From Okeania sp. SIO2F4 (GTDB lineage Bacteria; Cyanobacteriota; Cyanobacteriia; Cyanobacteriales; Microcoleaceae): 60,954 bases of DNA. Both the position numbers and the translations under genes were made by a program. Under the pieces are notes generated by a model that made no database searches, was not told the origin of the DNA, and saw nothing but the letters and a program-made list of their open reading frames with translations. This document shows positions 128-21,887 of the stretch, piece by piece. Each line of letters starts with the position of its first letter. The stretch's first letter is position 1. The stretch covers positions 1 to 60,954 of the forward strand of contig NZ_JAAHGT010000022.1 of the NCBI RefSeq assembly GCF_010672385.1, written 5' to 3'.

Positions 128-3100
128 ACTAGAGAAATGTTTCTAAAAACTGGTAGCACATTTTTTGAGGGTTTCCATTAATTCCGCTTCAAACGAAGCA
201 CTAGAGCTTGGTCGATGATGACATCAGCAGGAATGCTTGACTCAGTGTTTCCATTAATTCCGCTTCAAACGAAGCACTAGAGCTTTGCTAAAAAAATTAA
301 ACATAAGCAAAGGCTTGATGTTTCCATTAATTCCGCTTCAAACGAAGCACTAGAGTTTTATATTTGCGAAGAGCTCAAAGCTTTAAGCAAGTTTCCATTA
401 ATTCCGCTTCAAACGAAGCACTAGAGTCAGCTTCTAACGAAGAAGTTAAGGTTAAAATAATTCAAGTTTCCATTAATTCCGCTTCAAACGAAGCACTAGA
501 GCAAAAAAGCCATAGATAATTATATTACATGGGCGAAAAACATGTTTCCATTAATTCCGCTTCAAACGAAGCACTAGAGTGTATTGTAGCTTCAATGTCT
601 GCAATAATCTGTATGGTTTCCATTAATTCCGCTTCAAACGAAGCACTAGAGTATGCAAATACAATGATCCGAAAACTTTCTTTCATTTTAATGTTTCCAT
701 TAATTCCGCTTCAAACGAAGCACTAGAGGAAAACAGGGATAAACCCCCTTCCTCTTCTGACAAAGTTTCCATTAATTCCGCTTCAAACGAAGCACTAGAG
801 CAAACGCGTGTATCTTCATGTATGAAGGATACACTGAGAGTTTCCATTAATTCCGCTTCAAACGAAGCACTAGAGAGACATTAACAAAAGCATATCAGCT
901 TTACCATGAAGGTTTCCATTAATTCCGCTTCAAACGAAGCACTAGAGATGTACGTAATTCTATAAAGGTCTAAGCCTAATGGTTTCCATTAATTCCGCTT
1001 CAAACGAAGCACTAGAGAAATTTATGAAGTACAGACAGATGAAAGAAGGAGAGGGTTTCCATTAATTCCGCTTCAAACGAAGCACTAGAGCATCAAGGAA
1101 TACGGAGTAGACTTTGATGGTGTTCATTTTGTTTCCATTAATTCCGCTTCAAACGAAGCACTAGAGTCTATCAGTCATACTGATGGAACCATAACAGAAT
1201 CAGGTTTCCATTAATTCCGCTTCAAACGAAGCACTAGAGGATGTAGTAGTGAAGGAGGTTATAGAGCCTACTATAATCGTTTCCATTAATTCCGCTTCAA
1301 ACGAAGCACTAGAGAGTTTAGTTAAAACTGAAAAACCAGCGGAGCAATCCTGCCGTTTCCATTAATTCCGCTTCAAACGAAGCACTAGAGTCGAAGAGTT
1401 CGACGGAAGTCGTTCTCGCTACTTCGAAGGTTTCCATTAATTCCGCTTCAAACGAAGCACTAGAGCAAACTTGCGGCGACAAATGTCGACGACGAGCAAA
1501 ATGTTTCCATTAATTCCGCTTCAAACGAAGCACTAGAGTTTCACTTTCGAAGTTCCAAAACAACAATCTGAGCAATGTTTCCATTAATTCCGCTTCAAAC
1601 GAAGCACTAGAGTCCGTTGGTTCCGCAGCAATTGCTGCTCCCTACACTTTTAGTTTCCATTAATTCCGCTTCAAACGAAGCACTAGAGTTACCGCCCTTG
1701 CGGGAGAGCCACTCAATAAAGTTCCAGAAGGCTGGTTTCCATTAATTCCGCTTCAAACGAAGCACTAGAGTTAATATTGTGTTTGAGATGAAGGGAACAG
1801 GCTTAAGTTTCCATTAATTCCGCTTCAAACGAAGCACTAGAGTTTTGTCATAGCTATTGCTATGACCACTGTTCTTATCCCAACGTTTCCATTAATTCCG
1901 CTTCAAACGAAGCACTAGAGTTAAGAAGTCGGGCCACTACTGCGACTTTCCTCCTGTTTCCATTAATTCCGCTTCAAACGAAGCACTAGAGTGTTTTGGC
2001 AGCTGCGCCCGCGCCAGCTGCTCAAGACAACGTTTCCATTAATTCCGCTTCAAACGAAGCACTAGAGAAAGATATGGAGCTTCGCAAAGCGGATTCACAA
2101 GGTTTCCATTAATTCCGCTTCAAACGAAGCACTAGAGCCCCCCGTACTCAACCTCCTCGGGAGGTGCAGCCCGTTTCCATTAATTCCGCTTCAAACGAAG
2201 CACTAGAGGTCACAGGCCAGACTGTCACTGAGACAGAGCGCCAGGTTTCCATTAATTCCGCTTCAAACGAAGCACTAGAGTGTCTAATCAAAATCAAAAA
2301 AACGAAACACTTGCTGAAGTTTCCATTAATTCCGCTTCAAACGAAGCACTAGAGCAAAAAAATCATGCGTAACTTAATTGCTTCCGTTATTTGTTTCCAT
2401 TAATTCCGCTTCAAACGAAGCACTAGAGGGAGACTGCGCTTCGGCTTGTGCCGACGAGTGTGCCCCTGGTGGTTTCCATTAATTCCGCTTCAAACGAAGC
2501 ACTAGAGCCATGATTTTCAGTATTTGCGAGATATTGGAGCTCAACGTTTCCATTAATTCCGCTTCAAACGAAGCACTAGAGCTTCTTCTGTTCCGATCGA
2601 AAATGTTGAGCAAAGCATATTTCGTTTCCATTAATTCCGCTTCAAACGAAGCACTAGAGTGGAGGAATGTCCTCCTCCTGAGGAGAAGGAGGAAAAAGTT
2701 TCCATTAATTCCGCTTCAAACGAAGCACTAGAGGTGCGCCCCTGGTGCACCAAACGGACCGTGCAAGCGTTGGTTTCCATTAATTCCGCTTCAAACGAAG
2801 CACTAGAGCGCCGCCGCTTGCTTCGAAGCAAGCGGCGGCGACTACTACGAAAAGTTTCCATTAATTCCGCTTCAAACGAAGCACTAGAGCTTCGAAGCAA
2901 GCGGCGGCGACTACTACGAAAACAACGGGTTTCCATTAATTCCGCTTCAAACGAAGCACTAGAGGTCTTATCTCTCTCCTTATCGTGCTTTCGCTCCTGT
3001 TTTCGTTTCCATTAATTCCGCTTCAAACGAAGCACTAGAGAAGAAGAGTGGGAACCGGAGAACAACGGTTCCGCTAGTTTCCATTAATTCCGCTTCAAAC

Positions 3101-4450
3101 GAAGCACTAGAGCATTTCTATATGGATCGGCTTTTATACTCCTGATCTATGTGTTTCCATTAATTCCGCTTCAAACGAAGCACTAGAGATTCTCTCACTT
3201 TCAGCAACCGCTGCAGGTGCAGAAACGGTTTCCATTAATTCCGCTTCAAACGAAGCACTAGAGGTAGTGGTGGTGAGTGGGGCGTGCGAACTTCAACCCA
3301 GAATTGTTTCCATTAATTCCGCTTCAAACGAAGCACTAGAGTGCTGCTACTGCTACTGCCTTAGCAGTAGCTTCAAGTTTCCATTAATTCCGCTTCAAAC
3401 GAAGCACTAGAGGCACACTCCCAAGATCATTTAAATGATCTTGCTCGGGAAAGTTTCCATTAATTCCGCTTCAAACGAAGCACTAGAGTTGAAATAGACA
3501 GTAAATATTTCAGCATTGACAACGGCGTTTCCATTAATTCCGCTTCAAACGAAGCACTAGAGCTGGTGAATTCGGATTTGCGTACGTTAAACGCACGTTT
3601 CCATTAATTCCGCTTCAAACGAAGCACTAGAGGTTTCCGTTGCTACTTTGATTTCTGTTGCTTCTGCGTTTCCATTAATTCCGCTTCAAACGAAGCACTA
3701 GAGTAGATAAGTTTTCAGTAGAGGAAGTGCCTCCGCTGATAAGCTTGTTTCCATTAATTCCGCTTCAAACGAAGCACTAGAGACTCTCCAAAGCCCCTGC
3801 TTTGGAGACTGCACAACGAGTTTCCATTAATTCCGCTTCAAACGAAGCACTAGAGGAAAACCAAAAAAATAAGAGCATATATGAAGTTAGTAAACTGTTT
3901 CCATTAATTCCGCTTCAAACGAAGCACTAGAGTAGTTTTAGCAGCTGCTCCTGCAGTCGCTGCTACTACGATGTTTCCATTAATTCCGCTTCAAACGAAG
4001 CACTAGAGATTATTTCGCAATCTCTGTGCAACAAGAAGTGCGAAGGTTTCCATTAATTCCGCTTCAAACGAAGCACTAGAGAAATTCATAGGCGGCGCAG
4101 ACGCTGCCTATGAAAAAGTTTCCATTAATTCCGCTTCAAACGAAGCACTAGAGAGCGCTAATGCTGAAACTGTTGAAACTGTAGCACGAGGTTTCCATTA
4201 ATTCCGCTTCAAACGAAGCACTAGAGCCGATCTCAGCTCGTCGTGTTGCTTCTAATCCTGTAGCAGTTTCCATTAATTCCGCTTCAAACGAAGCACTAGA
4301 GCATACGCAACTACAACATGCAGTTGCGTTATATCCCAAGTTTCCATTAATTCCGCTTCAAACGAAGCACTAGAGGCCTCGTTGAACATAGGTGTTGAAG
4401 TTGATAACTTTGATGTTTCCATTAATTCCGCTTCAAACGAAGCACTAGAG
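128..4450 (-). CRISPR. CRISPR array 1: 58 full 36-bp repeats, transcribed leftward
   Basis: The repeat, in transcript sense, begins CTCTAGTGCTTCG and ends TTAATGGAAAC. On the plus strand the first full copy is 171-206 and the last is 4415-4450; I counted 58 full copies with 57 spacers of about 34-46 nt. Beyond the leader-distal copy there is one more spacer-sized piece (135-170) and a 7-nt repeat stub (128-134). Direction is fixed by the leader at 4451-4800, which is homologous to the leader of array 2. Repeats are essentially identical throughout, so the array looks active. Many spacers contain perfect inverted repeats (see findings). Reading frames in the array that encode VSINSASNEALE-like peptides are artefacts of the repeat. 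Confidence 0.98.
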
Positions 4451-4800
4451 AGTTCAGTTTCAGAACCACGACAAATCAAGGCTTTCAGACCCCCCAATAT
4501 ACACGCCCCTTTGATAAAAAAATCAACAAGGCAATTTTTGCCAAAATGACAACCCTCAAACCCGCTCCTGGCAAGGCACATACACGGGTCAACGAGATAA
4601 TCAGCATTTCAGCGATTCTCGGAGGCGTGTATGTGGGGTACCATGCAAAGATGAAAAACAACCTTTTAACCACTCCTTAAAGACTAGAAATGACTAAAAA
4701 AGTTTTGCTATTCATTTTTCGAGGTTCTTCATACTAATTCCGTTACTTTCTATCTTAACTTTAAGCATACAAATTGTCAACCCTAAGTTAATATTTTTTT
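4451..4800 (-). promoter_or_regulatory. Leader of CRISPR array 1 with sigma70-type promoter
   Basis: On the minus strand the leader has a consensus -35 TTGACA (4775-4780), a 17-bp spacer and a -10 TAAGAT (4752-4757), so transcription should start about 290 nt before the first repeat. The sequence aligns over its whole length with the array 2 leader. It contains a 10-bp stem with a 39-nt loop (4577-4635) that is preserved in the other leader by compensatory changes, a second small stem (GGCAA/TTGCC) and a TTGAT/ATCAA stem near the first repeat. Confidence 0.85.
4577..4635 (-). other. Covarying stem-loop in CRISPR leader 1
   Basis: The arms are CACATACACG and CGTGTATGTG on the minus strand, separated by 39 nt. 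The array 2 leader has CATCGACGCA and TGCGTCGATG at the aligned place with the same 39-nt spacing. Five of ten base pairs differ and every one is compensated. The loop itself is nearly identical. The element lies in the predicted leader transcript. Confidence 0.75.
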
Positions 4801-4817
4801 TCGGCCATATTTTTGTT

Positions 4818-5090
4818 CTAAATCACATAAAAATTAGGTGGTGGCGCTGGTTTTTCACTGCCAATTGTCAAAGTCATTGACATTGCTTCAGCAAACATCC
4901 AGTAAAAGCGAACATTATCTTCCGTTGGCAAAACAAACTTTTTCACCTTCTGATGCAACTGTCGCATTTCCTCCAAACTAATAAAACATTCAAACACTGA
5001 AAACTGCACCCGGCGACCGTAACCCTCCAGAAAATTAGATAATTTCGTTCGCCTCTTATCATCAGGAATATCGTACACAACAATTACCAT
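4818..5090 (-). CDS. cas2: CRISPR-associated endonuclease Cas2
   Basis: A 90-residue Cas2 whose ferredoxin-like fold starts with MVIVVYDIPDDKRR; the Asp in VYDIPDD is the usual conserved position. I start at the ATG at 5088-5090 because this is where the family begins; an upstream in-frame start would add 33 residues encoded by intergenic heptamer repeats. Cas2 dimers bridge Cas1 dimers in the spacer integration complex. It is the last gene of the minus-strand adaptation module and lies just beyond the array 1 leader, whose promoter reads away from it. Confidence 0.93.
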   Translation of the reverse strand: MVIVVYDIPDDKRRTKLSNFLEGYGRRVQFSVFECFISLEEMRQLHQKVKKFVLPTEDNVRFYWMFAEAMSMTLTIGSEKPAPPPNFYVI

Positions 5091-5094
5091 AGTT

Positions 5095-5270
5095 TTTTTA
5101 GGACTCAGGAGCCAGAATCCAGAATCCAGGAGCCAGGAGTTAAGTATGATGAGACTAATACTATAACTAAAGGTAATAAATTTTCCCAAGGAACTCTAAT
5201 CTAATTCCTGAATTCTGTTTGCAGAGCATTCCGTAGGAAATTCTGAATTCTGAATTCTAACTCCTGAATG
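5095..5270. repeat. Heptamer repeat block and first copy of a ~60-bp direct repeat
   Basis: The block contains heptads of the CCAGAAT/CCAGGAG and AATTCTG type. About 5128-5187 (ggagttaagta...gagactaatac...aaaggtaataaatttt) is repeated with few changes at about 5717-5780, in the same orientation, on the other side of the S23-like gene. Confidence 0.7.
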
Positions 5271-5272
5271 AA

Positions 5273-5641
5273 TTATCTTTGTTGTTCTAACTTGTTTACA
5301 TAAGAATCTAGTAGTTTACTTACCTCTTCTAAATTTCCCATTACTTTAGTGCAGTTGTTATTGTATCCAAGGTCTTCAATTAGGATTAAATAATAACGAC
5401 ACTCTTCCAATGAACTTTGTGATATGTTCAAAAATCTAATTTTATCAGGTACAGTTCTTCTCTTAAAACCTTCTGCTATATTTGCAGGTACAGATACAGC
5501 AGCACGTCTTAATTGAGATGTTAATCCATAGATTTCTTCTTTGGGAAAACTACGACTAATAGAATAGATTGACAAAACAAAATGATGGGCTTTTTGCCAC
5601 ACAATTAAGTCTTGAAATTTTCTAGCAGGTTGGGTTGGCAT
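5273..5641 (-). CDS. Four-helix-bundle S23/Avd-like protein inside the Cas1-Cas2 module
   Basis: The 122-residue helical protein has the hallmarks of the S23 (23S rRNA intervening sequence) / Avd-like four-helix-bundle family: an N-terminal FQDLIVWQKAH, then LTSQLRRAAVSVPANIAEGF near residues 41-60, a helix with LNISQSSLEECRYYL and a C-terminal amphipathic helix. Family members form pentameric barrels, and the Avd branch binds the reverse transcriptase of diversity-generating retroelements. The gene lies between cas1 and cas2 on the same strand, next to an RT, so an accessory role for the RT is an attractive inference. It is also flanked by a duplicated sequence, so it may simply be a mobile passenger. 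Family assignment is firm; function here is not. Confidence 0.85.
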   Translation of the reverse strand: MPTQPARKFQDLIVWQKAHHFVLSIYSISRSFPKEEIYGLTSQLRRAAVSVPANIAEGFKRRTVPDKIRFLNISQSSLEECRYYLILIEDLGYNNNCTKVMGNLEEVSKLLDSYVNKLEQQR

Positions 5642-5903
5642 GAGTAATATTAAGTATTAAGTAGTTGGAAGCTAGGAGTTAGAATCCAGAATCCAGGAGC
5701 CAGAATCCAGGAGTCAGGAGCCAGGAGTTAAGTAAGTTGACGAGACTAATACAATAACTAAAGGCAATAAATTTTCTCAAACAATTCTGGCTCTGTTTAC
5801 GGAGCATGACATTAGCGTAGCTCCTCTGTAGGAGGCACGGAAATTCTAGCTCCTTCCATTCTAAATTCTGGATTCTGAATTCTGAATTCTGACTTCTTCC
5901 ATT
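5642..5903. repeat. Heptamer repeat block and second copy of the ~60-bp direct repeat
   Basis: Holds AGAATCCAGGAGCCAG-type heptads, the second copy of the direct repeat (5717-5780) and AATTCTG heptads ending at the cas1 stop codon. No gene seen. Confidence 0.7.
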
Positions 5904-6995
5904 CTAAATTCTCCAAAAAGGTTCATAAGCTTCCCCATGTAAAAGATAACGTTTATAACGCCGAATTTGTAATTGAATTGCACGTCGATAACAAACCTGA
6001 GACTGTATATCAGGATGAGAAATTGACTCATTCATTCTTTGTTCAAATTGTTCTAAAAATACCTTCCTTGCCCCTGACTTTAGATAAACACCACCAGTTG
6101 TAATAACCGATTCAAAATTCTTTGGTTTAACCGCCGAAGAATTAATAAACCATAGCACAAAACTATCAACAATAGGAGAACGAAATTCTTCCATCAAATC
6201 GAATGCTAAATATGGTTTTTTCTCTTCTCCATAATGGAAATTTCCAAAATACGGCGATAAACCCTCAGCAATAATCAAACTCAAAACATTATTAAAAAGT
6301 AGAGTATAGCCAAAACTCAACAAAGAATTAACTGGGTCTGTAGGCGGTTGACGATTCCGCAAAGAAAAGCTAAAAGCCGAATTACTAATTAACTTACCCA
6401 AAGCCGGAAAATATCGAGCAGCAGCAATACCTTCATAACCCCGTAAACTATCAATATTTTTCACACTATCAACAGCCAAAATATCCGTATTAATTCCAGC
6501 GATCGCCTTCGCCACATCTGGCACTTGACGCTTTCGATTTAATCGTAATAAAAGCTGTCGAGAATTCATCAACTTACCCCGAACAATAGCCTGACAAACA
6601 GGTAATTTAAAATCCACATTTCCATGTTTTTTCACCTGAACCAACTCATTATCTAAATGAGTAGATTCTACATTCCACACATGACCCTTATATTGACCAG
6701 AAGAAGCCAAAAACAAGACAATAATTTTTTTATCTAAACAAGTTTGAATAACCGGAGTAGTTAACTGGATATTACCAAAAATTAAAATCCTTTCAATCTC
6801 CCGAATTGGAATTTCCATCCGATTATTATCATTATTTTTATCAGGAATCCAAATCCCAAAACGTTGATTGTCCTTATAAATAGTAGTACCAGCCTCAAGT
6901 AAATAAAGAGTAGCCATTTCTTGACTCCAAATAACGCGATTAGTAAATTTTTTAGCTAGCTTTGTTGGTGAAAAAGCTCTTGGTAAAACCTCCAA
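5904..6995 (-). CDS. cas1: CRISPR integrase Cas1 (C-terminal part of a split RT-Cas1)
   Basis: Cas1 integrates prespacers at the leader-repeat junction. The three metal ligands are visible: Glu in RGYEGIAAARYF, His in FGNFHYG and Asp in AFDLMEEFRS, so the integrase looks intact. The open frame begins with a TTG at 6993-6995 that overlaps the end of the RT gene by 40 bp; the usual Cas1 core begins at an internal ATG (MATLYLLEAG, from 6917), preceded by about 26 linker-like residues. This frame is open upstream as far as a TAA touching the A9 tract at 7028-7036. A -1 shift on that tract would join RT and Cas1 in one chain, as in known RT-Cas1 fusions. Whether Cas1 is made separately, by frameshifting, or the gap is an assembly error cannot be settled here. 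Confidence 0.95.
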   Translation of the reverse strand: MEVLPRAFSPTKLAKKFTNRVIWSQEMATLYLLEAGTTIYKDNQRFGIWIPDKNNDNNRMEIPIREIERILIFGNIQLTTPVIQTCLDKKIIVLFLASSGQYKGHVWNVESTHLDNELVQVKKHGNVDFKLPVCQAIVRGKLMNSRQLLLRLNRKRQVPDVAKAIAGINTDILAVDSVKNIDSLRGYEGIAAARYFPALGKLISNSAFSFSLRNRQPPTDPVNSLLSFGYTLLFNNVLSLIIAEGLSPYFGNFHYGEEKKPYLAFDLMEEFRSPIVDSFVLWFINSSAVKPKNFESVITTGGVYLKSGARKVFLEQFEQRMNESISHPDIQSQVCYRRAIQLQIRRYKRYLLHGEAYEPFWRI

Positions 6996-8020
6996 TTCCG
7001 TTGTTTCCGTTTCTTGTTCTTGGAGACTTTTTTTTTACCCCGTTCTTCCTTCTGCCCTCTGCCTTCTGCCTCCTGCCTTCTTCCTTCTTCCTTCTTTCTT
7101 CTTCCTTCCTCATTCGACTCAATAGGAAAAATAGCATTATCCAGAAAACCATGACCAAGAAAACGAAAACCTTCTTTAAAATTAGTCAATAAAGTTTTAT
7201 CAGGATGCAAAGTCAACTCCAGAGAATCCAAAGTTTTTTCTACATGAGCAGAAGCTGCCAGAATTTCCTCTAAACTTTGAGCCAGCACAAGAAAATCATC
7301 AGCATAACGTACCAACTTCCAATCAGTATCAGAGAAACTTTTATCAAATTCATCCAAATAAATATTAGCCAAAAGAGGAGAAATCACAGCCCCTTGAGGA
7401 ATACCTTTGTCAGATTTAACAATTTTTTCCTTAGTCAAAATACCAACAGAAATCCAAGATTTAATCAAACATAAAATTCCTGGATGTTCTACATATTTCC
7501 GAACAGCTTTTAACAAGATTTGATGATTAATATTATCAAAAAACTTAGTAATATCGGCATCCAAAACAAACCGATAATTCAAATTTCGCCACCGAATTAC
7601 CTCATTAACAGCATCCAAATAAGAGAGATTAGGACGATAAGCAAAACTAACAGCAGAAAAAGATTTTTCCACCACAGGATTAAGCACATTTAAGAGAGCG
7701 TGTTGTACAATTCTATCCCTAATAGTAGGAACTCTTAACTCTCGAAAATTGCCATGATTTTTAGCAATTAAAATCTGTTTACAAGGAAGAGGTTCATATC
7801 TATTATTAGCCACATCATCCTTAAGTTGAGAAATATTAGCGCGTAAATTTTGCTTAAAGTCATCAATAGTTTCATTATCAACTCCAGCACTACCTTGTTT
7901 AGCAGCAACATTAGCAAAAGCTTGGAGAAAATTGTCTAAATTCAGGAATTTCTCAACTAAATTAGTTGAGTCTAATTCCGAGTCATTGTTTAAATTAGAA
8001 AAAATCTTTCGGAAAACCAT
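6956..8020 (-). CDS. Reverse transcriptase of an RT-Cas1 adaptation module
   Basis: The 354-residue protein carries the RT fingers and palm motifs of group II intron-like enzymes: GSAGVDNETIDDF near the N-terminus, REL-RVPTIRDRIVQHAL, LDADITKFFDNINH (motif A), GIPQGAVISPLLANIYLDEF, catalytic YADD in LVRYADDFLVLA, and LTLHPDKT with FLGH. There is no N-terminal Cas6 domain. RTs joined to Cas1 allow spacer capture from RNA. After residue ~300 the protein runs into a low-complexity linker (EEGRRKKEEGRRQEAEGRGQ) encoded by intergenic-type heptamer repeats, then overlaps cas1. It should be transcribed with cas1 and cas2. Confidence 0.93.
   Translation of the reverse strand: MVFRKIFSNLNNDSELDSTNLVEKFLNLDNFLQAFANVAAKQGSAGVDNETIDDFKQNLRANISQLKDDVANNRYEPLPCKQILIAKNHGNFRELRVPTIRDRIVQHALLNVLNPVVEKSFSAVSFAYRPNLSYLDAVNEVIRWRNLNYRFVLDADITKFFDNINHQILLKAVRKYVEHPGILCLIKSWISVGILTKEKIVKSDKGIPQGAVISPLLANIYLDEFDKSFSDTDWKLVRYADDFLVLAQSLEEILAASAHVEKTLDSLELTLHPDKTLLTNFKEGFRFLGHGFLDNAIFPIESNEEGRRKKEEGRRQEAEGRGQKEERGKKKVSKNKKRKQRNWRFYQELFHQQS
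7028..7036 (-). other. A9 tract at the RT-Cas1 frame change
   Basis: Nine As on the coding strand, read AAA AAA AAA in the RT frame. Slipping back one base, or one extra A in the transcript, places the ribosome in the Cas1 frame right after a TAA (GG-TAA), giving a continuous RT-Cas1 with a linker of about 20 residues before the overlap ends. Confidence 0.7.
7044..7112. repeat. Heptamer repeat inside the RT coding sequence
   Basis: The sequence TTCTGCC TCCTGCC TTCT... is the same heptad family as the intergenic block at 8046-8080 and the short copy near 8838-8853. Here it lies inside the reading frame and encodes the RT-Cas1 linker. Confidence 0.8.
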
Positions 8021-8651
8021 CTTTTTTTCAGTTATCAGTTATCAAGAAAGGCAGAAGGCAGGAGGCAGAAGGCAGAAGGGAATATTGGTTCAAAGAGAGA
8101 AAGTTTTTTAGTCGCGTAAGCGCTATTTCCACCAGACATGATATTATTACCTTCCTTGCCTACTGCTCTCAACATAAGTGCTTTCTGCCTTCGATGACAT
8201 TATGGCATTGGTATGGAAAAGGGGTTTTCCTGACGCAGATATGATATGATATAGCAGATTCCACCAGGGGTGAAGACAACATAAGCATCACTGCTTTTTA
8301 ACCTAATTAAGGATAAAAATTATGAAAATTGACACTGAAGGAAAAATTACCGAATAATTATTAATGGTTAATAATTAATAATTAATAGTCAATTAATTAT
8401 TCATTCAACAATTCACACCTTGAAGCCTCCCTTTGGATAGGGGATAAATCAAAAATTTTCCTTTTAGGCAATCCTATCCGTTTTAAGAAGGGGTAATTTG
8501 TTCATTGTTAATTTCTGAACATACCTCTAGAAATTCAAAACCAGGTGTTGTCTTCTAACTTCCTTTTACAAGTATAGGAAAAAGCCTCTTCCATTAACTT
8601 TTATAGTGAATAATATCAGAGCGCTCAACTCACTTAAAAGGAGCAAAGTTA
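8021..8651. other. Intergenic region upstream of the RT gene
   Basis: Contains the heptamer block AGAAGGC/AGGAGGC (8046-8080), a TTAATTA-type block at 8358-8400 and a CCTCCC/GGGGTAA composite repeat near 8430-8500. The promoter of the RT-cas1-S23-cas2 unit should lie here but I see no clear consensus. No gene supported before the small ORF at 8652. Confidence 0.5.
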
Positions 8652-8851: not shown

Positions 8852-10339
8852 TTAATCACAATAAAATTTCCAACTTTGTTGAATGTCCTTCGCCATAGTT
8901 TCACGCAAATCCCAAGGTAAGAAAACTTCAACTTTGGCTCCCCAACTTCTCAAACGCATAATCGTATTATAATCCTGACGATAATTTACTCGACAGTAAA
9001 TATCAGAGCTAGAACGAGATTTTAAACTTCCTAAAAGCTGCTGTTTTTGTTCCAATTTTATCTCCGAATTATTAATCAAACTTTGAGCTTGTTTGTAAGA
9101 AATTTGTTGAAATAACTTCTCTCGTTCCGTACCTTGAATATAAAGATTATGATAATAGCGGTCAAATCTAATTAGTAAAATTTCTTGAGGCCGAGCCAAA
9201 TTAAATCCCCAAGTTTCACTTCTAATTTTTTCTAAAGTTTGAGGTGTTTTTGACTCACATATTTTCTGAGAAAAATTCGGCAAATTTACCAAACTCCATT
9301 CTAACTCTTCTATATTTTTAATCCTGTCAAGGCGATAACCATACCAATTTATTTTCATGGAACTACTATTCTTTGGAGTTTGACCATAAGCAAATAAATA
9401 AGGGGCACGTTGAGAATAGTAAATACAAACAGGATAGATAATATAATCTTCTCCCTCATCCTGATAATTTTGAAAATTACTGGCACTAACATAAGTAATT
9501 TTTATTGGTGGAATTGGTTCAGATTGCCAAATATTTTTCAGTTTTTGTATCCAAATATTGAGATTTTTATAAAACTGTTGATGCACAATATATTCAAGTT
9601 CTAAAAAGAAACGTTGTTCGTGATTAATTTTCTGACTAAATTCATTGAAAAAATCTGCTAAATCATTTTGAATCAGATTTTCAAATCCTTGATTCTCGAC
9701 AACTTCCTCTGAGACAGACATTAGAATAGCGGGAAATGAATCAACTTTAATATATTGAGTTTTAAATTTGTTGTGAGTCGGCTCGCTCTTAACCTTTTCT
9801 GTCTGTAACCAACCCAGAGAAACTAATGTTTGAAAATCATATTGAAAGTTTCTGCGGGTTTTAGCTAATAAACCTTTTTTTTGTGGTTTTTCCGACTCTT
9901 TATTTACAGAAAGCGTACCACAATTCAATAAATTATGAAGTTGTTGTGTTGTAACTGGATAAAGCTGAAGAAACGACTTTTTCCATTCATTATCATTAGA
10001 ACCTATGCTTGGTTCAAATAGCCAATCAGTCATTGTTTTGTGACAAGAACAATTAGAATCATGGTTATGAGGAATTATATCATTTTTATGATAATTAAAC
10101 CCCGTAAAAAAACGACTGCACCAGTCATTATAGGTAAATTTATTTCCTAATTCAACTTTTACCGGATCTGCTTCCGAACCGTAGAGCGATCGCAAGATTA
10201 CCCATAGACGTACTGCTTTAGGTAAGTTTTGTTTGAGAGAACCTTGTGCCAATATCTGTAAAAATTCAACATCAGGGGAAAATTCAAAAGTGTTAGATGC
10301 TCTGAAGTTATTTTGATTCATTTTTATAGTTTGTTTCAC
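8852..10339 (-). CDS. WYL-domain CRISPR-associated regulator (TIGR03985-like)
   Basis: The 495-residue protein resembles the cyanobacterial CRISPR-associated family TIGR03985: an N-terminal helical part (LAQGSLKQNLPKAVRLWVIL, then LYGSE), a winged-helix-like segment around residues 150-185 (AKTRRNFQYDFQTLVSLGWL) and a C-terminal WYL-like region with INWYGYRLDRI, ETWGFNL and a final RLRSWGAKVEVFLPWDLR. WYL proteins commonly control defence operons, some in response to nucleic-acid ligands. The gene diverges from cmr2 across a 411-bp gap, the classic position for a regulator of the effector operon. A role as repressor or activator is inferred. Confidence 0.85.
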   Translation of the reverse strand: MKQTIKMNQNNFRASNTFEFSPDVEFLQILAQGSLKQNLPKAVRLWVILRSLYGSEADPVKVELGNKFTYNDWCSRFFTGFNYHKNDIIPHNHDSNCSCHKTMTDWLFEPSIGSNDNEWKKSFLQLYPVTTQQLHNLLNCGTLSVNKESEKPQKKGLLAKTRRNFQYDFQTLVSLGWLQTEKVKSEPTHNKFKTQYIKVDSFPAILMSVSEEVVENQGFENLIQNDLADFFNEFSQKINHEQRFFLELEYIVHQQFYKNLNIWIQKLKNIWQSEPIPPIKITYVSASNFQNYQDEGEDYIIYPVCIYYSQRAPYLFAYGQTPKNSSSMKINWYGYRLDRIKNIEELEWSLVNLPNFSQKICESKTPQTLEKIRSETWGFNLARPQEILLIRFDRYYHNLYIQGTEREKLFQQISYKQAQSLINNSEIKLEQKQQLLGSLKSRSSSDIYCRVNYRQDYNTIMRLRSWGAKVEVFLPWDLRETMAKDIQQSWKFYCD

Positions 10340-10750: not shown

Positions 10751-15021
<4,271 letters not shown>

Positions 15022-15023
15022 CA

Positions 15024-15938
15024 ATGAACCAGCGTCAAAATTATTTAACTTATGCTCATTTAATCACACCTTTACACACAGGAGGTAGCACTCAAGAAGG
15101 AAATTTAATGGGTATTGCTCGTGAAGTTCATACAGAATTTCCTTATCTACCTTCTGCTTCTTTGCGGGGTAAAATTCGTTCGGAATTAGAATATTTGAAT
15201 CCCAAGGAAGCTGATACATTTTTCGGTCAGAAAATTAAAGATGGTAAACAACCAACGGAAGGAGAGGTTTGGTTTGCTGAAGCGACATTATTATTTTTTC
15301 CTATTGCTTCTTTAAACTATCATTTAATCTGGATTACTTGTCCTCTTTGGTTAGAAAGATGGAATCGCTGGATTAATAATAGTCAGTTAAATAATTTTCT
15401 AGTAAGTTGTCGGGAAAATTTGGGTAAAAAATCTGCAATAGTAACTTTTGATGCTCCAGAGATTTATTTGCAAACTGCTCTAATTAAACAATCTAATTTT
15501 GAAAAAATTGAGCTTTTAATACCTGAAGAATTTGAGCAATTATTGAATAGTAATGGTTTAGTTCAGCAAATACCAGGTCGATTAATTATTGTCAACAATG
15601 AAGATTGTATTGCTTTGGTAGAAACTGGTTTACAACGGGAAGTTAGGGTGGCATTGAAGGAAGAATCTAAAACTGTCAAAGGAGGTTCTTTTCGTTCTGA
15701 AGAGTCTATTCCACCAGAGGCAATAATGTTTTTTCCTTGGGGAATGAAGTCTATGTTAAAAGATAGAATTAAGGTTGATAAGGGTATAGAAGAGGAAAAA
15801 AGTGAAACAGAAGTAGAACCTCAAGATACGACAAATATCCGTCAAGAAATTGTAGAGATTCTCAATGATAGATTGCAATTTGGCGGTTTAGAAGGTTTGG
15901 GAAGGGGCTGGACAGATTTATTTACAATTAAATTGTAG
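15024..15938 (+). CDS. cmr4: Cmr4 (Cas7-group backbone), catalytic Asp apparently replaced
   Basis: The 304-residue backbone subunit begins YLTYAHLITPLHTGGSTQEG and has the RAMP loop LPSASLRGKIRSELE and a C-terminal glycine-rich GGLEGLGRGW. I start at the ATG at 15024, 2 bp past cmr3, rather than at 15006, because the family begins there. In Cmr4 the residue that cuts target RNA is an Asp in a pattern like G-x-x-D-x-P-I-Q-R-E-x-H-T. Here the stretch is G-N-L-M-G-I-A-R-E-V-H-T, placing Met29 where the Asp is expected, with a one-residue gap. Target slicing may thus be lost. The alignment is by eye. Confidence 0.9.
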   Translation: MNQRQNYLTYAHLITPLHTGGSTQEGNLMGIAREVHTEFPYLPSASLRGKIRSELEYLNPKEADTFFGQKIKDGKQPTEGEVWFAEATLLFFPIASLNYHLIWITCPLWLERWNRWINNSQLNNFLVSCRENLGKKSAIVTFDAPEIYLQTALIKQSNFEKIELLIPEEFEQLLNSNGLVQQIPGRLIIVNNEDCIALVETGLQREVRVALKEESKTVKGGSFRSEESIPPEAIMFFPWGMKSMLKDRIKVDKGIEEEKSETEVEPQDTTNIRQEIVEILNDRLQFGGLEGLGRGWTDLFTIKL

Positions 15939-16024
15939 AAATTTTGATGTTTTTTATATCCTCTTGCTTTCAAATAACAGAGGAAATGAGAGTAGTTAAA
16001 TCAATTTAATTAACAGGAGTAATA

Positions 16025-16612
16025 ATGAGTAAAAACAAGCAATACAATCAAAAAAAGCAGACTGGTCAAAATCCATCTGGTACTAATCTTAAAAAACAGA
16101 CTCAACAACCACAAATAGTTTCAAAAATAAGTTATCCAGTAGCTCAAGTTCAGAAATTAGATTCACGAACTTTTAGCAAAGAAGCTTATGAAGCATTAAA
16201 GGAAATGATAAAACTACCTTCAGAAAATGAAAAAAATAAATATTACTTAGAAGAAGATTATCGAAAAAAAGCTAGTGCTTTAGTACAGGGTTTAACTGCT
16301 TATATTTCGACTTGGGGATTACATCGTCTGAGTGGAGATGCTAAGAAATTTCTGAAAAAAGACTTAGATAATAAAGATGGAGAAAATAATCCTAAAAAAG
16401 GAGAAGACACTCAGTATAAAGGAAAAGTATATCAGAAATTCTTAGAGAGTCTTCAATGTTTTAGTGAAATGAATTTTGATATTGATGATGAAGCTAGTTT
16501 AATCGATCTTCCCTTAAGAAAATATACAGCTTTAAATCGTTTAGCAATTCAGTTAGCAAAAGAATGGGCTTTTTGGGCCCATTCAGTATTAGGAGAAGCA
16601 GATAATGGATAA
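16025..16612 (+). CDS. cmr5: Cmr5 (Cas11, small subunit)
   Basis: A 195-residue, mostly helical protein with a basic, Gln/Lys-rich N-terminus and a core containing KKASALVQGLTAYISTWGLH and a C-terminal helix RLAIQLAKEWAFWAHSVL, as in Cmr5. The subunit lines the inner filament of the complex and stabilises the crRNA-target duplex. It is longer than the usual ~130-150 residues because of the N-terminal tail and a Lys/Asp/Gly-rich insert near residue 115. An AGGAG ribosome binding site precedes the ATG. The 3' end overlaps the next gene by 8 bp. Confidence 0.88.
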   Translation: MSKNKQYNQKKQTGQNPSGTNLKKQTQQPQIVSKISYPVAQVQKLDSRTFSKEAYEALKEMIKLPSENEKNKYYLEEDYRKKASALVQGLTAYISTWGLHRLSGDAKKFLKKDLDNKDGENNPKKGEDTQYKGKVYQKFLESLQCFSEMNFDIDDEASLIDLPLRKYTALNRLAIQLAKEWAFWAHSVLGEADNG

Positions 16613-18434
16613 CAATCAAGAATGGCAATATTTCCTCCAAAAATTGCAGAAAGATAATATAAATATGTATGAATTATTGAAGGAAACAGAGCTAGATATA
16701 GGGGAAAATTTAACAATTTATCATCCTACTGAAGAGGGGAAAGCAGATGTTGGAAAACAGCGGGGTAAAATTCAAGCTAAGTTAGTTAGAATGTATCCCC
16801 ACTGGCAGCAGAAAAAGTTGATTGTTAAAGCTGGTAAACCAATAGCAATAAAAAACATAACAAACCCCTTGCAAAGTCTTGTTATTGACAAGAAAAAACT
16901 GCTAGACAGGGCCAAGGGCAAAGATAAAAGTTTACAGCCACTACTAGAAGAAGTGAAAAATGCCGATAAAACCTGTGAAGATATTTATTCCTTCTTAACT
17001 GAACGCACCAAAACCCTATCCAAAGAAGGGCGAACGTTAGAGGTAAAATTTTCTTGGCGACTGCGAGTTGGTGGAATGCGTGGTTTCCAAGAACTATTGT
17101 TACCCGTATTTCACCCAGTTTATGGTATACCTTACGTTCCTGCTGGTAGTCTCAAGGGAGCTACTAGAGCATGGGCAAGACAACATGGTGTGAGTAAGGG
17201 TGAGATTAATAGGTTGTTAGGAGAGTTGGAGCAAGGGGTGGGTTGCATACAAATTTTAGATGCTTTTCCCAAAGCTCCTTGCTTAAGTGTAGATATGGCA
17301 AACCCCCAATGGGTATGGGAAAAGAACAGAGTTAGGTATGATCCTAAACCCCATCCACTTCTCTCTATGCAGGAACCGGAGTTAGTTATTGGTTTAGTTC
17401 GGACTCATCGAGGGAAACGACAGCAGCAAGCTCAAGACTTGGAAACAGTGGAAACTTGGTTAAAAAATGCTTTAGCTGCCGGAATAGGTTCTCGTGTTAG
17501 TGCGGGATACGGACGCACTCAACCTCAAGCTACTTTACCTCATTCCTTATCCCATAGTTTTAAAGTGTGGACGCAAGGAATGTATGGAGCTAATACCAAA
17601 GAGGGAGAGTTTCGCCATACCGCAGTTAGAGGAGTATTACGGTATTGGTTTCGAGCGGTTGCTTTAGGTTTGTATAGTGTTGAAACTTGCCAGGAACTTG
17701 AGACTCAGCTTTTTGGTGCTTTGAGTAAAGAGGGAAGCGTGAGAATAGGAATTAATTTACAAGAGATTTCTACTAACAAAACACCTTATTTTTATGAAGG
17801 TTCTATCTTACTAGAATCTAAGTCTAAGAGTCATTTATTGTTAGTAGAAAATGTCTTAAAATTATTATCAAATATTGGGGGAGTAGGTAGGGGTTCAAGA
17901 CGGCCTTTGCATTGGAATGATGGGAGAATGAGGGGTTGTCATTGGGAATTAGATAAGTGTAAACTTTCTTTCGATAAAAACCAATGGCAAAAGTTTCTTG
18001 AATCTGTAATAAATTCATTTATAGAGGTTTATCCGTGTGGCATTTCTACTAACATGAAGCTGAGTGATGGAGAAAATCGTTATCAGGATGTATTGAACTC
18101 TAAAGCTAAAATATTTTTAGTGCCTTCTGTGCAACAAAAACATCCTCAGCGTGTTAATAATTGGTCGGTAGAAGGATATAAAAAATCTGTATTAGGAGAA
18201 GCACTAGATTTACTTTACAGCAGTCCTAGTTTTAAAGGAAAAAACAGGAAAAAAGTTGGTAATCCTCTTGTGGGAGGAACATTAGGAACTCCTTCTTTTG
18301 TGATTATTAAATCTATTTTTCCTAGTTCTGGTCATCCCTATCAAGTAGTAACAATATTTGGGGCAAATCATCCTCAGCGAGATAATTTTGTTCGGGCTTT
18401 ACCTGATAATTCTATTCAGGTTTGGCCTCTATAA
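16605..18434 (+). CDS. Cmr6-Cmr1 fusion (two RAMP domains)
   Basis: At 609 residues this is twice the size of a single RAMP. The first half has the Cmr6 pattern: FSWRLRVGGMRGFQELLLPV, then YGIPYVPAGSLKGATRAWAR and, at its end, GIGSRVSAGYGRT. The second half has the Cmr1 pattern: FRHTAVRGVLRYWFRAVALG, a LFGALSKEGSVRI segment, and GGVGRGSRRPLHW. Together with Cmr2-5 it supplies all six Cmr subunits; there is no separate cmr1 or cmr6. A fixed 1:1 pairing at the head of the complex follows. It overlaps cmr5 and is followed 35 bp later by the first CARF gene. Confidence 0.88.
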   Translation: MDNNQEWQYFLQKLQKDNINMYELLKETELDIGENLTIYHPTEEGKADVGKQRGKIQAKLVRMYPHWQQKKLIVKAGKPIAIKNITNPLQSLVIDKKKLLDRAKGKDKSLQPLLEEVKNADKTCEDIYSFLTERTKTLSKEGRTLEVKFSWRLRVGGMRGFQELLLPVFHPVYGIPYVPAGSLKGATRAWARQHGVSKGEINRLLGELEQGVGCIQILDAFPKAPCLSVDMANPQWVWEKNRVRYDPKPHPLLSMQEPELVIGLVRTHRGKRQQQAQDLETVETWLKNALAAGIGSRVSAGYGRTQPQATLPHSLSHSFKVWTQGMYGANTKEGEFRHTAVRGVLRYWFRAVALGLYSVETCQELETQLFGALSKEGSVRIGINLQEISTNKTPYFYEGSILLESKSKSHLLLVENVLKLLSNIGGVGRGSRRPLHWNDGRMRGCHWELDKCKLSFDKNQWQKFLESVINSFIEVYPCGISTNMKLSDGENRYQDVLNSKAKIFLVPSVQQKHPQRVNNWSVEGYKKSVLGEALDLLYSSPSFKGKNRKKVGNPLVGGTLGTPSFVIIKSIFPSSGHPYQVVTIFGANHPQRDNFVRALPDNSIQVWPL

Positions 18435-18469: not shown

Positions 18470-20155
18470 ATGGATAGCAAAAAGAAATCGATTGTAATTG
18501 CCAACATCGGCACGTCTGACATAGCAGTAAAAATTGAAGAAATAGACCGTTATATTCCTGTTGGATTTGACCGTAATGAACCAAATATTAACGATTCAGA
18601 CTTAACAGAAGAAGACAAAAGTACCTGGGAACAGGAATTAGAAAAAAGTTTTATTCGAGAATATCTATGTCTGGAATTAGGAATAGATCGATATTCTTTT
18701 CGAGAACTAACCGAAAGAATTTTAGAGGAATATAACAAGGATGAAGAAACATGGCATCATCGAATAAGTTTAGACCGTTTTAAGGGAGTAATTGACCAAG
18801 CAAAAAGTGCTTTTGATATAGAAAAAGTATATCTCTTTGTCACAAACCAACCTAAATATATTCCTGATCTGAAAACAGGCAAACTAAAATTTAACAAAGG
18901 ATATCTAACAGATACAATTCATTTGTATGACATTTTTCAGAAATGGTTTAAGCGTGAGATTCCTGATTTGAAACTGGAAAAGAAAGAAATTCCTCAAAAT
19001 ATTTTACCAGTTGAACAAGATAAACTATTCAGTTATTACTATCAATTTTTTGAAGAAAGTATAAATAAACTTTTCAGGAAAAATACTAAAAGTGATTCGA
19101 TAATTATAGCCAGTATTAAAGGTGGGACAAATCAGATGGAAAGTGCATTGAGATTGCAAACAATTGCATCATTGGCAAAAAAACAATTGTTTGTTGAACC
19201 TATTTTGTCTTTAAAAAAAATACTTTATGGAAAACCTTCTGAGTGTAAATTTACTTCTTATTGGCAATACATGAGTATCCAGAAATATGAAGATGTAAAG
19301 GTCATTTTAGACAGGTGGGATTTTGATGGTGCTTTACAGTTACTTGAACAGTGGCAAAAGAGTCTAATATTTTTAAAAGATAATAACATAGATGATGCTC
19401 AAATAAAGACTCATAATAAATTAATCGGCCAAGTGATTAAGGTTTTGGAAATAGGAAATAATTATTGGAGTTTAGACATAGAAAAGGCGAAAGGTATAGC
19501 AAAAGATAGGTCTTTTAAAATACCTCCAGAAGTTACTAAAGAACTTACTATTAATGATGATAAAGATTTGCTTGGTGAGATTTTACTCAATACTTATACT
19601 CAGTGTCGCATTCACTATAAGTTAAAGCAAATGGCTAGCTTTTTAGTTGGTGTAAGCTCTTTTTATGAAATTGTATTACAAAGAATAGTTGATGATCGTG
19701 GTACGGAAGCAAAACAAAAAGAGTTTCAGAAAAAGAAGAATCGTTATGAGAAGAGAGATGTAATAGATAGCCTTTTTACTAAGAACTCAAAAGAGAAAGA
19801 ATCTTGGCAGGGTACTAAAAATATTAGGGGTATTAGACCATCACTAAATCAATTAAACCTTTGGTGTAAACGACGAAATCAATTTATTCACTATGATGAT
19901 ACAGCTTCTAAAAATTTAGGAGGGATTTCTGAAGAATCACTGCAAAAGTTCTACGAAGATGAGAAAAATAAAGGCAACAATATTTGTTCTCTTAAAGAGA
20001 TTTTAGATGAAGTAATGCCGCAAATACTCAAAAGTGATTTAGGATTGATATCTTTAGAGCAGAAAAGCAAATTTGTTGGCGAAGATAAACCCTATTATAT
20101 CTATTCTGAAGTCAGAAACTGGGTAGTTAAACAATTGACTGAAAAAGGTTTCTAA
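18470..20155 (+). CDS. CARF-HEPN ribonuclease, Csm6/Csx1-like (copy 1)
   Basis: The 561-residue protein begins with a CARF-type strand, IVIANIGTSDIAVKI, and has the second ligand-binding motif IASIKGGTNQMESA near residue 215. The C-terminal part is helical with a HEPN active site R-N-Q-F-I-H (R-x4-H, near residue 480). Such proteins bind cyclic oligoadenylate made by Cas10 and degrade RNA. It is the sixth gene of the cmr operon and has a paralogue directly downstream. The exact subfamily name is not certain. Confidence 0.87.
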   Translation: MDSKKKSIVIANIGTSDIAVKIEEIDRYIPVGFDRNEPNINDSDLTEEDKSTWEQELEKSFIREYLCLELGIDRYSFRELTERILEEYNKDEETWHHRISLDRFKGVIDQAKSAFDIEKVYLFVTNQPKYIPDLKTGKLKFNKGYLTDTIHLYDIFQKWFKREIPDLKLEKKEIPQNILPVEQDKLFSYYYQFFEESINKLFRKNTKSDSIIIASIKGGTNQMESALRLQTIASLAKKQLFVEPILSLKKILYGKPSECKFTSYWQYMSIQKYEDVKVILDRWDFDGALQLLEQWQKSLIFLKDNNIDDAQIKTHNKLIGQVIKVLEIGNNYWSLDIEKAKGIAKDRSFKIPPEVTKELTINDDKDLLGEILLNTYTQCRIHYKLKQMASFLVGVSSFYEIVLQRIVDDRGTEAKQKEFQKKKNRYEKRDVIDSLFTKNSKEKESWQGTKNIRGIRPSLNQLNLWCKRRNQFIHYDDTASKNLGGISEESLQKFYEDEKNKGNNICSLKEILDEVMPQILKSDLGLISLEQKSKFVGEDKPYYIYSEVRNWVVKQLTEKGF

Positions 20156-20291: not shown

Positions 20292-21887
20292 ATGGCTATC
20301 CTAATTGCAAATATCGGCACATCTGATTTAGCGGTAAAAATTGAAGATTATTACATTCCTGTAGGTTTTGACCGCAACGAACCAAATCTTGATTATTCTG
20401 GCTTAACGGAAGATGAGAAAATTATGTGGGAACAGCAGAAATTAAGACAGGAATATGTTACTCAACTTCTTTGTCCTGAGTTAAATGTTGCAGTCGATAA
20501 AAATAATCCTAAAATTCCTTTTTATTTCCGAGAATTGACTGAAAAACTACTCAATGCTTATCAACAAGATGAGGAAAAATGGCATCCTCGGATTCGCCCA
20601 GGCAGAATTAGTGGGGTGATTAAAACTGCTGTGGAAAAGTTTAAAGTTCAAGATATTTATATCTTTGTTACTAAACAAAAAGACCCACATCCCCAAGATT
20701 CAATTTATCTGTTTGATATTTTGCAAAAGTGGTTCAAAAAAGAACAAAATATTCAGTTAATTCCTGAGATTATACCTGCTGATATCCCGGCGGTAGATTT
20801 AGATAATTTACTGGACTACTATTATGGAGTTTTTGTTAAATATATTAGTAGAGATAGTGAATTATTAATCAGTCTCAAAGGTGGAACACCTCAGATGAAA
20901 ACTGCTATTTCTATGCAGGCTTTTGCTTCTTCTATTAATAAACAAATTTTTATTGACCCTGTGTTGTCTCCTGCTAAAATTTTGGCTGGAGAACCTTCTG
21001 ATTGTCTGTTAACTTCTTATTGGCGATATATGCGGAATCAGAAGTATCAAGATGTGAAAATTTTGTTGGAGGAAAGATGGGATTTTGATGGAGCTATTCA
21101 GTTAATTAAGCAATGGCAGGAGACTTTAAAGTTTTTGAATTATCACTTGGAAGATATTAAGATTTCTCAGATAAATCATTTGATTTCTCAGGTTTTTAGA
21201 GGGCTAGAAATTGCTAATTATTGTTTGAATTTAGACTGGAAAACTGCTAATGAGATTGTTAAGAATAATTCTGCTCAAATTCCAGGAAGGATTTCTAATC
21301 AAGTCAAGGATAAGAATTACAATCTTTTACTTAATGTCTATACTCAATGTCGCATTTATTATTATGATGAATTGAATCAGATGGCTAATTTTTTGGTGGG
21401 AGTCAGTTCTTTTTATGAACAAGTTTTGGAAATCATAGCAAAGAATTTAGGTCAGAAAAAATATTATCCAGATAAAGGAAATCGTTATGAAAAGCGAGAT
21501 TTTGTAGATGGTATAATTAGTAAAAATTCAAAGCATTATGATTCTTGGTTGACTATTCAAGAATGTCTGAATAGCTTAAATTTTTGGTGTAGTAAACGTA
21601 ATAGATTGATTCATAATGGTGAGGGAATTTCTATTAAATTAATGGAAGATTTATATTTTCAAAAAGAGTTACTGCTACAGAGAGCTAATGAATATGAACG
21701 AGAGGATATTAAAAATGCTTGTGCCCCCAAGTCAATTTTAAATGTAATGACACGAATTTTGGAAACAGATTTCCAGCTCTTGCCTAACCAATATCAGAAA
21801 TATGTGGGTAGAAAAGCTGACTATTACATTTATTCTGCTGTCAGAGAGTGGGCGATCGCTCAGTTGATGAATGAAGGATTGAAATGA
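20292..21887 (+). CDS. CARF-HEPN ribonuclease, Csm6/Csx1-like (copy 2)
   Basis: A 531-residue paralogue of the preceding protein. Shared features: ILIANIGTSDLAVKIE at the start, PVGFDRNEPN, ISLKGGTPQMKTAISMQ as the second CARF motif, WDFDGAIQLIKQWQ in the linker and NRYEKRDFVDG before the HEPN active site R-N-R-L-I-H. Both copies look catalytically intact. Retention of two divergent copies suggests different ligand ring sizes, different targets or heterodimers. A 136-bp gap with a palindrome separates them; it contains no clear promoter, so co-transcription is likely. Confidence 0.87.
   Translation: MAILIANIGTSDLAVKIEDYYIPVGFDRNEPNLDYSGLTEDEKIMWEQQKLRQEYVTQLLCPELNVAVDKNNPKIPFYFRELTEKLLNAYQQDEEKWHPRIRPGRISGVIKTAVEKFKVQDIYIFVTKQKDPHPQDSIYLFDILQKWFKKEQNIQLIPEIIPADIPAVDLDNLLDYYYGVFVKYISRDSELLISLKGGTPQMKTAISMQAFASSINKQIFIDPVLSPAKILAGEPSDCLLTSYWRYMRNQKYQDVKILLEERWDFDGAIQLIKQWQETLKFLNYHLEDIKISQINHLISQVFRGLEIANYCLNLDWKTANEIVKNNSAQIPGRISNQVKDKNYNLLLNVYTQCRIYYYDELNQMANFLVGVSSFYEQVLEIIAKNLGQKKYYPDKGNRYEKRDFVDGIISKNSKHYDSWLTIQECLNSLNFWCSKRNRLIHNGEGISIKLMEDLYFQKELLLQRANEYEREDIKNACAPKSILNVMTRILETDFQLLPNQYQKYVGRKADYYIYSAVREWAIAQLMNEGLK

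Follow-up and report, generated by a model that had tools for sequence, protein, structure and literature searches.

In a CRISPR locus of the cyanobacterium Okeania sp. SIO2F4, a reverse transcriptase (RT) and the integrase Cas1 are encoded in two reading frames that meet at a run of nine adenines (A9). The window analysed here is contig NZ_JAAHGT010000022.1 (C648; 60,954 nucleotides (nt)) from a genome of 10.18 Mb in 1512 contigs. The tract and the two frames are conserved among relatives, and the linker between the two domains is under coding constraint in the Cas1 frame. On the sequence evidence, the RT/Cas1 pair is probably one recoded gene whose programmed slippage, more probably at transcription than at translation, would deliver RT alone together with an RT-Cas1 fusion and set the ratio of the two products.

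The adenine tract and its conservation

The A9 tract occupies positions 7028 to 7036 of the minus strand (T9 on the plus strand) and is read by the RT frame as AAA AAA AAA, in codon phase 0, within GGT AAA AAA AAA GTC TCC AAG (7039 to 7019). The RT open reading frame (6956 to 8020, minus strand) encodes 354 amino acids (aa) with a YADD motif (RVT_1, E=1.9e-37) and is of the group II intron type (TIGR04416, 288.7 bits for a cut-off of 300). Behind the tract it continues as a basic tail of 23 residues, VSKNKKRKQRNWRFYQELFHQQS, followed by a stop, in a region (6956 to 7027) that is read in two frames. The Cas1 frame (5904 to 7034, minus strand; 376 codons and a stop; Cas_Cas1, E=1.5e-82) overlaps the RT frame by 79 nt and opens behind a TAA (7035 to 7037) that covers the first two A's of the tract, so that a ribosome already in the Cas1 frame upstream of the tract would terminate. 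Its first 39 codons (6918 to 7034) form a linker devoid of ATG, with a single in-frame TTG at 6995, and homologous to the in-frame linker of a fusion from Okeania sp. SIO2B3. The first ATG, at 6917, starts the Cas1 domain (MATLYLLEAG..., 5904 to 6917, 337 aa). RT and Cas1 do not share a single uninterrupted frame in the window, being offset by -1 at the A9. One additional nucleotide in the RNA, or a -1 slip from the RT frame, gives by arithmetic 2118 nt, that is an RT-Cas1 protein of 705 aa and a stop. A previous sequence-only reading of this DNA had placed the tract, the adjoining TAA and the ATG-free Cas1 opening exactly, and its full fusion by one extra A or a -1 slip agrees with this arithmetic. 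It had left regulated production, a fresh mutation or a sequencing error as explanations and had proposed a comparison of tract length in relatives.

This comparison was based on Cas1-domain searches (E-value limits 1e-60 to 1e-120) of the family, order and class of the window and of three further families, preceded by searches of its own genome and genus with a longer Cas1-frame query. The 1106 genomes searched (repeats included) were taken as one genome per species, and plasmid records were added; the loci are related and so not independent. A linker run of at least 8 A's, which defines the tract set, is kept as A8 to A10 in 54 of 80 distinct loci (A9 in 39, A10 in 11, A8 in 4). Forty-two of the 54 are split with the -1 offset of the window, four are split the other way and in eight the frame continues through the junction (A9 in four, A10 in three, A8 in one); the -1 offset represents 42 of the 46 distinct split loci. 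The 26 tract-free loci, whose longest linker run is 3 to 7 A's, comprise 25 fusions and one split (L065). Of the splits in the other direction, two look intact (L028 and L093), additional stops are present in L011, and L024 is degraded. On a Cas1 tree of 80 rows, built as a quick tree without bootstraps, tract presence corresponds to one change (Shimodaira-Hasegawa-like approximate likelihood ratio test, 99), and the split or fused state has changed at least 8 times. The TAA overlapping the tract start stands at the same position in 35 of the 42 loci with the -1 split, whose linkers range from 122 to 458 nt.

In the RT-core and Cas1 coding sequences of the 55 tract-bearing rows, 101,950 bases in all, A9 and A10 runs are absent and 20 A8 runs and one A11 run occur; because of this absence, the linker tract is beyond chance. 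As a separate observation, a second A8 run stands at one RT-core site common to 18 tract rows (L076 and L096 being one sequence), and at about this site L093 displays an A11, its linker run being only A8. A YADD-type motif is present in 50 of the 54 distinct tract loci, the misses being due to an intron (L008), a contig end (L038), an insert (L088) and a deletion (L090); RT lesions affect two of the 42 split loci (L088 and L090), the RT of L038 being cut by the contig end. A Cas1 E/H/D pattern of our own definition is found in 53 of the 54, the exception being L024. In L090, RT core residues 88-273 are missing, yet the A9 and the open Cas1 frame are kept.

Complete plasmids display the -1 split as well: Gloeothece citriformis PCC 7424 (A10), Nostoc N6 (A9) and Microcystis NIES-2481 (A10). 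A protein search at E<=1e-90 returned four plasmid records, all already in the earlier plasmid set; a split at A9 or A10 is seen in the three whose Cas1 identity is at least 63%, and the remaining record (57%) is a fusion that lacks the tract. Thirteen rows, with L076 and L096 as one sequence, come from records or assemblies with no more than 10 contigs (counts rounded): nine of these rows show the -1 split, two a split at A8, and the other two are in frame. No relative of the locus was found in viral contigs. Regulated production of RT versus fusion is thus strongly supported at the level of the clade, the same -1 split being shared by most tract loci, complete plasmids included.

The nearest named relative at this locus is Okeania sp. 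SIO2B3, which holds two copies with a Cas1 95-96% identical to that of the window. In one copy (L005), RT and Cas1 form an uninterrupted frame of 714 codons, and the matching site holds A10 (GGT AAA AAA AAA AGC). The other (L006) also has A10, is in frame across the junction and bears a group II intron in RT directly after YADDF (Rfam RF00029, 51.3 bits); this intron, at about 3378-5765, carries its own maturase frame (3997-5670) and interrupts the CRISPR RT. Inserts of 645 nt at about the same RT position (L099) and of 926 nt elsewhere in RT (L088) were also observed. The window being split with A9 and SIO2B3 in frame with A10, tract length has changed in this lineage. Taken by itself, this comparison would suggest that the window has lost one base or contains an error. 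The A10 of the nearest relative nevertheless does not refute the proposed recoding, since conservation concerns the tract as such. The fresh mutation of the sequence-only reading is possible for this one genome, in the form of a recent length change. Of six other genomes of the genus of the window, one gave a Cas1 match of 34% identity and five gave none, and the Cas1 of the window genome (G000) shares 95-96% identity with its counterpart in a genome under another genus code (G048). The distribution of Cas1 across genera hints at horizontal transfer of the module.

The handling of individual loci was as follows. From 104 loci collected, 88 were used and oriented, 81 contained both RT and Cas1 and 80 were distinct; eight further Cas1 matches were found but not taken into the set. 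The 16 loci left out had a distant Cas1 (L002-L004, L021, L022, L025, L026) or were partial (L066, L071, L073), represented the same gene as L024 (L015), repeated other loci (L001, L005 and L006, of L007, L023 and L008, respectively) or consisted of Cas1 or RT alone (L079, L080). Seven of the 88 lacked an RT match in the flank taken (L014, L049, L057, L061, L063, L067, L070), L014 (59%) and L049 (61%, partial) being within the identity range of the tract set. The identical L076 and L096 were counted once in distinct-locus counts, linker lengths and tail and linker charges. Both were kept in the locus classification, the stop shuffle, the tree, the count of Shine-Dalgarno (SD) words at the Cas1 ATG, the ratio of non-synonymous to synonymous differences (pN/pS), the folding and upstream SD tests, the third-position and phase analysis and the counts of linker motifs and start codons. 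L024 was omitted from the tree, from the third-position and phase analysis and from the split rows of the stop shuffle. L008 and L023 are two copies within one genome; L008 and L099, whose RTs contain inserts, were scored as fused from the RT piece adjoining the tract.

Coding constraint on the linker

The evidence says that the linker is translated in the Cas1 frame, as judged from its sequence. Between the tract and the Cas1 ATG of the 42 loci with the -1 split, the Cas1 frame contains no stop in 2,844 codons, for 192 and 146 stops in the other two frames. In the 46 split rows, 3 Cas1-frame stops were counted, all in L011, against a mean of 200 and a minimum of 152 in 300 shuffles. The linker pN/pS is 0.53 in the Cas1 frame versus 0.83 and 1.05 in the others, for 18 hand-picked close pairs (four including fused loci) whose codon alignment followed the Cas1 frame, a choice that can bias the ratio towards it; the RT figures of the same test include rows with RT inserts and were not used. 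Differences are in excess at third positions (145/888 vs 194/1768, p=1.2e-4, 13 pairs). Gap lengths modulo 3 were uninformative (13 of 44 post-tract gaps are multiples of 3), and linker nucleotide alignments were too gappy.

Peptide conservation points in the same direction. Directly before the Cas1 Met lies a stretch with a Trp, for example QKNIWN(R/Q)E, and Trp is usual at this place in the displayed tract-free loci too. Thirty tract rows (28 split, 2 fused; L076 and L096 are one sequence and the L082 match looks unrelated) have LHQP or LHKP in their linker, and 16 of these 28 split rows have no ATG, GTG or TTG between the tract and the motif. Up to the Cas1 ATG, 17 of 43 split rows lack ATG, GTG and TTG, and 34 lack ATG. 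An independent start of a linker-bearing Cas1 was considered and rejected, an in-frame start with an SD-like word being found in 1 of 43 split rows. As the linker often holds no start codon, the simplest source of ribosomes is the RT frame. In the 35 of 42 loci whose TAA overlaps the tract, a frame change made any earlier would run into this stop, so that entry must take place within the run or after it. The RT-frame tails are basic in 40 of 42 loci (+0.33 per residue) and the Cas1-frame linkers mostly acidic (38 of 42), a contrast that may arise in part from reading one A- and G-rich DNA in two frames.

Proposed mode of slippage and competing explanations

The proposed mechanism is as follows. 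Standard decoding would produce the 354-aa RT, ending in the short basic tail. RNA polymerase would slip on the A9 in some of the transcripts and add one A (or 3n+1), and ordinary translation of these transcripts would yield the 705-aa fusion, which together with Cas2 would constitute the spacer-acquisition integrase. The run would thereby set the RT : RT-Cas1 ratio, which could serve to limit the integrase or to provide the complex with additional RT; fusion mixed with free RT and a restricted integrase would each be plausible. From the pattern described above we infer the occurrence of slippage, its transcriptional nature and rate, and the function of the ratio. A9 runs allow efficient slippage of bacterial RNA polymerase (PMC5009743), and slippage on the A11 run of tssM is about 20% (PMC4256274).

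The same two products would result from programmed -1 ribosomal frameshifting on A_AAA_AAA within the tract, the slip then occurring in translation. The window tract contains this heptamer (X_XXY_YYZ) in the required phase, as any A9 or A10 run is long enough to do, and the -1 offset dominates the split loci; Antonov et al. 2013 (PMC3711429) take uniform direction as a sign of ribosomal frameshifting. In transcriptional realignment, orthologues may retain either direction; here 42 loci follow one, four the other and eight are in frame. Seven in-phase A's would suffice, yet the run has 9 or 10 A's in 50 of 54 loci and 8 in the rest, and a criterion for programmed transcriptional realignment is an A/T run at least about 9 long where a conserved change of frame occurs. 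The tract set was pre-defined by its run length, but the 26 loci outside it group apart on the tree. The codon phase is 0 for A9 tracts and variously 0, 1 or 2 for A10 tracts. The 43 split rows gave no general signal of a stimulator of -1 ribosomal frameshifting, whether a downstream structure or an upstream SD-like site: SD-like words upstream of the tract are rare (3 of 43), and the 70 nt folded downstream give a mean z of -0.19 (below -2 in five rows, L027, L036, L077, L081 and L092), these z-scores covering structures other than pseudoknots and standing without a working control. From the run of 9-10 A's and the lack of a downstream structure signal, RNA polymerase slippage appears to fit better, and ribosomal frameshifting is considered unlikely.

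Several of these observations weigh against the proposed recoding, or against its transcriptional form. The heptamer in the window makes ribosomal slippage possible, the split direction is nearly uniform, the folding scores have the limit just mentioned, and an SD-like word upstream of the tract is found in 3 of 43 split rows versus 0 of 42 in a control from the RT core, numbers too small to carry weight. The nearest relatives of the window are in-frame fusions and eight tract loci in all are in frame, so that the tract is not always at a split. Some independent production of Cas1 is possible as well: a GGAG at 6928-6925 ahead of the window's Cas1 ATG could allow some initiation there, and an ATG is present at the Cas1 start in 55 of 55 tract rows, making Cas1 alone possible in part. 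An SD word precedes this ATG in 5 of 55 tract rows and in 14 of 26 tract-free rows too, the SD count being a weak guide. L011, with stops between the tract and Cas1, and the degraded L024 do not conform to the pattern.

Switching at the DNA level is a rather improbable explanation. The tract would toggle in the population between 9 (split) and 10 (fused) A's, turning the fusion on and off, as the difference between the window and SIO2B3 and the repeated split/fused changes on the tree, with the tract persisting, could suggest. The ratio of 42 split to 8 fused loci is lopsided for a free switch, and four fusions with A9 indicate that length is not a simple on/off code; phase variation and slippage are not mutually exclusive. 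In a secondary fission, RT and Cas1 would be separate genes, Cas1 being expressed from its own ATG and the linker a leftover. Silas et al. 2017 (PMC5513706) attribute some unfused loci to fission, the Gloeothece, Nostoc and Microcystis plasmid records annotate two genes, and L011 fits this description. Against it stand the open Cas1-frame linker and its coding constraint, the peptides conserved upstream of the ATG, the scarcity of SD words at that ATG and the single dominant offset, which make a fission highly improbable. Least credible of all, with hardly any weight, is a sequencing or assembly error in the window hiding a true A10: the genome is in 1512 contigs and its nearest relative has A10, but the same -1 split at A9/A10 recurs in 41 other distinct loci, three complete plasmids among them. 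An error, as raised in the sequence-only reading, is possible for this one genome and cannot explain the clade pattern.

The RT-Cas1 fusions of type III CRISPR systems described by Silas et al. and by Toro et al. 2017 (PMC5541045) resemble the present locus in their order, a group-II-intron-like RT followed by Cas1, with Cas2, an array and a Cmr effector; here the parts lie in two frames joined at a conserved A9/A10 run, a junction that finds no mention in the available portions of these two papers. Toro et al. include a cyanobacterial clade, RT-CRISPR-5, with 3 RT and 5 RT-Cas1, and our guess is that the present clade corresponds to it. Of the PDB entries, L005, the in-frame homologue, best matches (E=6.2e-61) the Cas6-RT-Cas1/Cas2 complex (7kft, 7kfu; PMC8102632), which is in frame and has a Cas6 domain, unlike the window. 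This complex is described as a heterohexamer in which one Cas2 dimer is combined with two Cas6-RT-Cas1 dimers; its RT-Cas1 linker is flexible, and density is available for 2 of 4 Cas6-RT lobes. A structure prediction of L005 (4-row alignment) had a mean predicted local distance difference test score of 32.4 and was not used.

In retroviruses and insertion sequence (IS) elements, a frame slip limits the amount of integrase or transposase fusion. The present case differs in that it concerns a host defence gene and a homopolymer site and that no stimulator structure was found. The slippage genes dnaX (Thermus), tssM (Citrobacter rodentium, Yersinia) and IS630-type transposases are described as having an A/T run of about 9-11 at the frame junction and products of different length, either of which can be the standard one; here the gene is one of CRISPR adaptation and its full-length product joins RT to the integrase. 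RT frameshifts in the RT-Cas1 genes of Drancourtella and Eubacterium rectale are described as mutations by Toro 2019 (PMC6753606). In the portions available, the main texts of Antonov 2013 and Atkins 2016 do not mention CRISPR or cas1, and a 2024 study of Marinomonas RT-Cas1 (PMC11014452) does not mention a frameshift. In the open PMC literature, among the matches listed, no title or abstract names frameshifting or slippage for RT-Cas1 or cas1, and none names a recoded cas gene, which the present one would be.

In database records and papers, the RT and Cas1 of such loci are entered as two genes. Should these loci be recoded fusions, a large cyanobacterial clade is missing from surveys of RT-Cas1 systems, and expression of the annotated Cas1 alone would produce the wrong protein. 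As a more tentative extension, it is quite possible that the whole cyanobacterial clade of seemingly separate RT and Cas1 genes is decoded by slippage, and that a retroelement-like ratio of free, basic-tailed RT to RT-integrase is needed for spacer uptake from RNA. The RT : RT-Cas1 ratio required by an RNA-acquiring CRISPR integrase becomes a testable question.

The surrounding CRISPR locus

Seven-base repeats of the GGCAGAA/GGAAGAA type (family D7, inverted pairs I1-I2) occupy 7040 to 7119 of the RT-Cas1 linker on the minus strand and are open in the RT frame; none was seen in the SIO2B3 linker. GGCAGAA-type repeats recur at 8048-8094, directly upstream of RT, and are possibly of the heptameric short tandemly repeated repetitive type of cyanobacteria. 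A role of these heptamers as a frame switch was rejected: a further 7-nt unit would shift the frame, only for reading to end at the TAA that overlaps the tract.

The minus strand carries, in this order, a TIGR03985 CRISPR-associated protein gene (8852 to 10339), RT, Cas1, a four-helix-bundle gene (5273 to 5641) and cas2 (4818 to 5090). The array lies beyond, at 171 to 4450 (no strand assigned), with 58 identical 36-nt repeats and 57 different spacers. Cas1 active-site residues, cas2 and the array are all present beside RT, the presence of cas2 and the array being established for the window in particular. None of the 57 spacers is shared with either SIO2B3 locus (71 each) in the stretches compared. 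The spacers being wholly different, the adaptation module responsible could be other than the RT-Cas1 locus, given another Cas1-like gene on contig C910 of the window genome.

Avd-type proteins are RT partners in diversity-generating retroelements. The four-helix-bundle gene between cas1 and cas2 is IVP/bAvd-like and is flanked on both sides by similar 51-nt stretches (5147-5197 and 5738-5788, 86%); in a Pseudanabaena plasmid (L078), an IVP gene stands directly upstream of a fused RT-Cas1. The type III-B (Cmr) effector genes Cmr2/Cas10, Cmr3, Cmr4 and Cmr6/Cmr1-like are found at 10751 to 18434 on the plus strand, the Cmr3, Cmr6 and Csm-type matches scoring below the NCBIfam cut-offs. Beside this operon stand two tandem open reading frames with related starts, 18470-20155 (561 aa) and 20292-21887 (531 aa), the former with a weak Csm6 CARF match below the Pfam cut-off.

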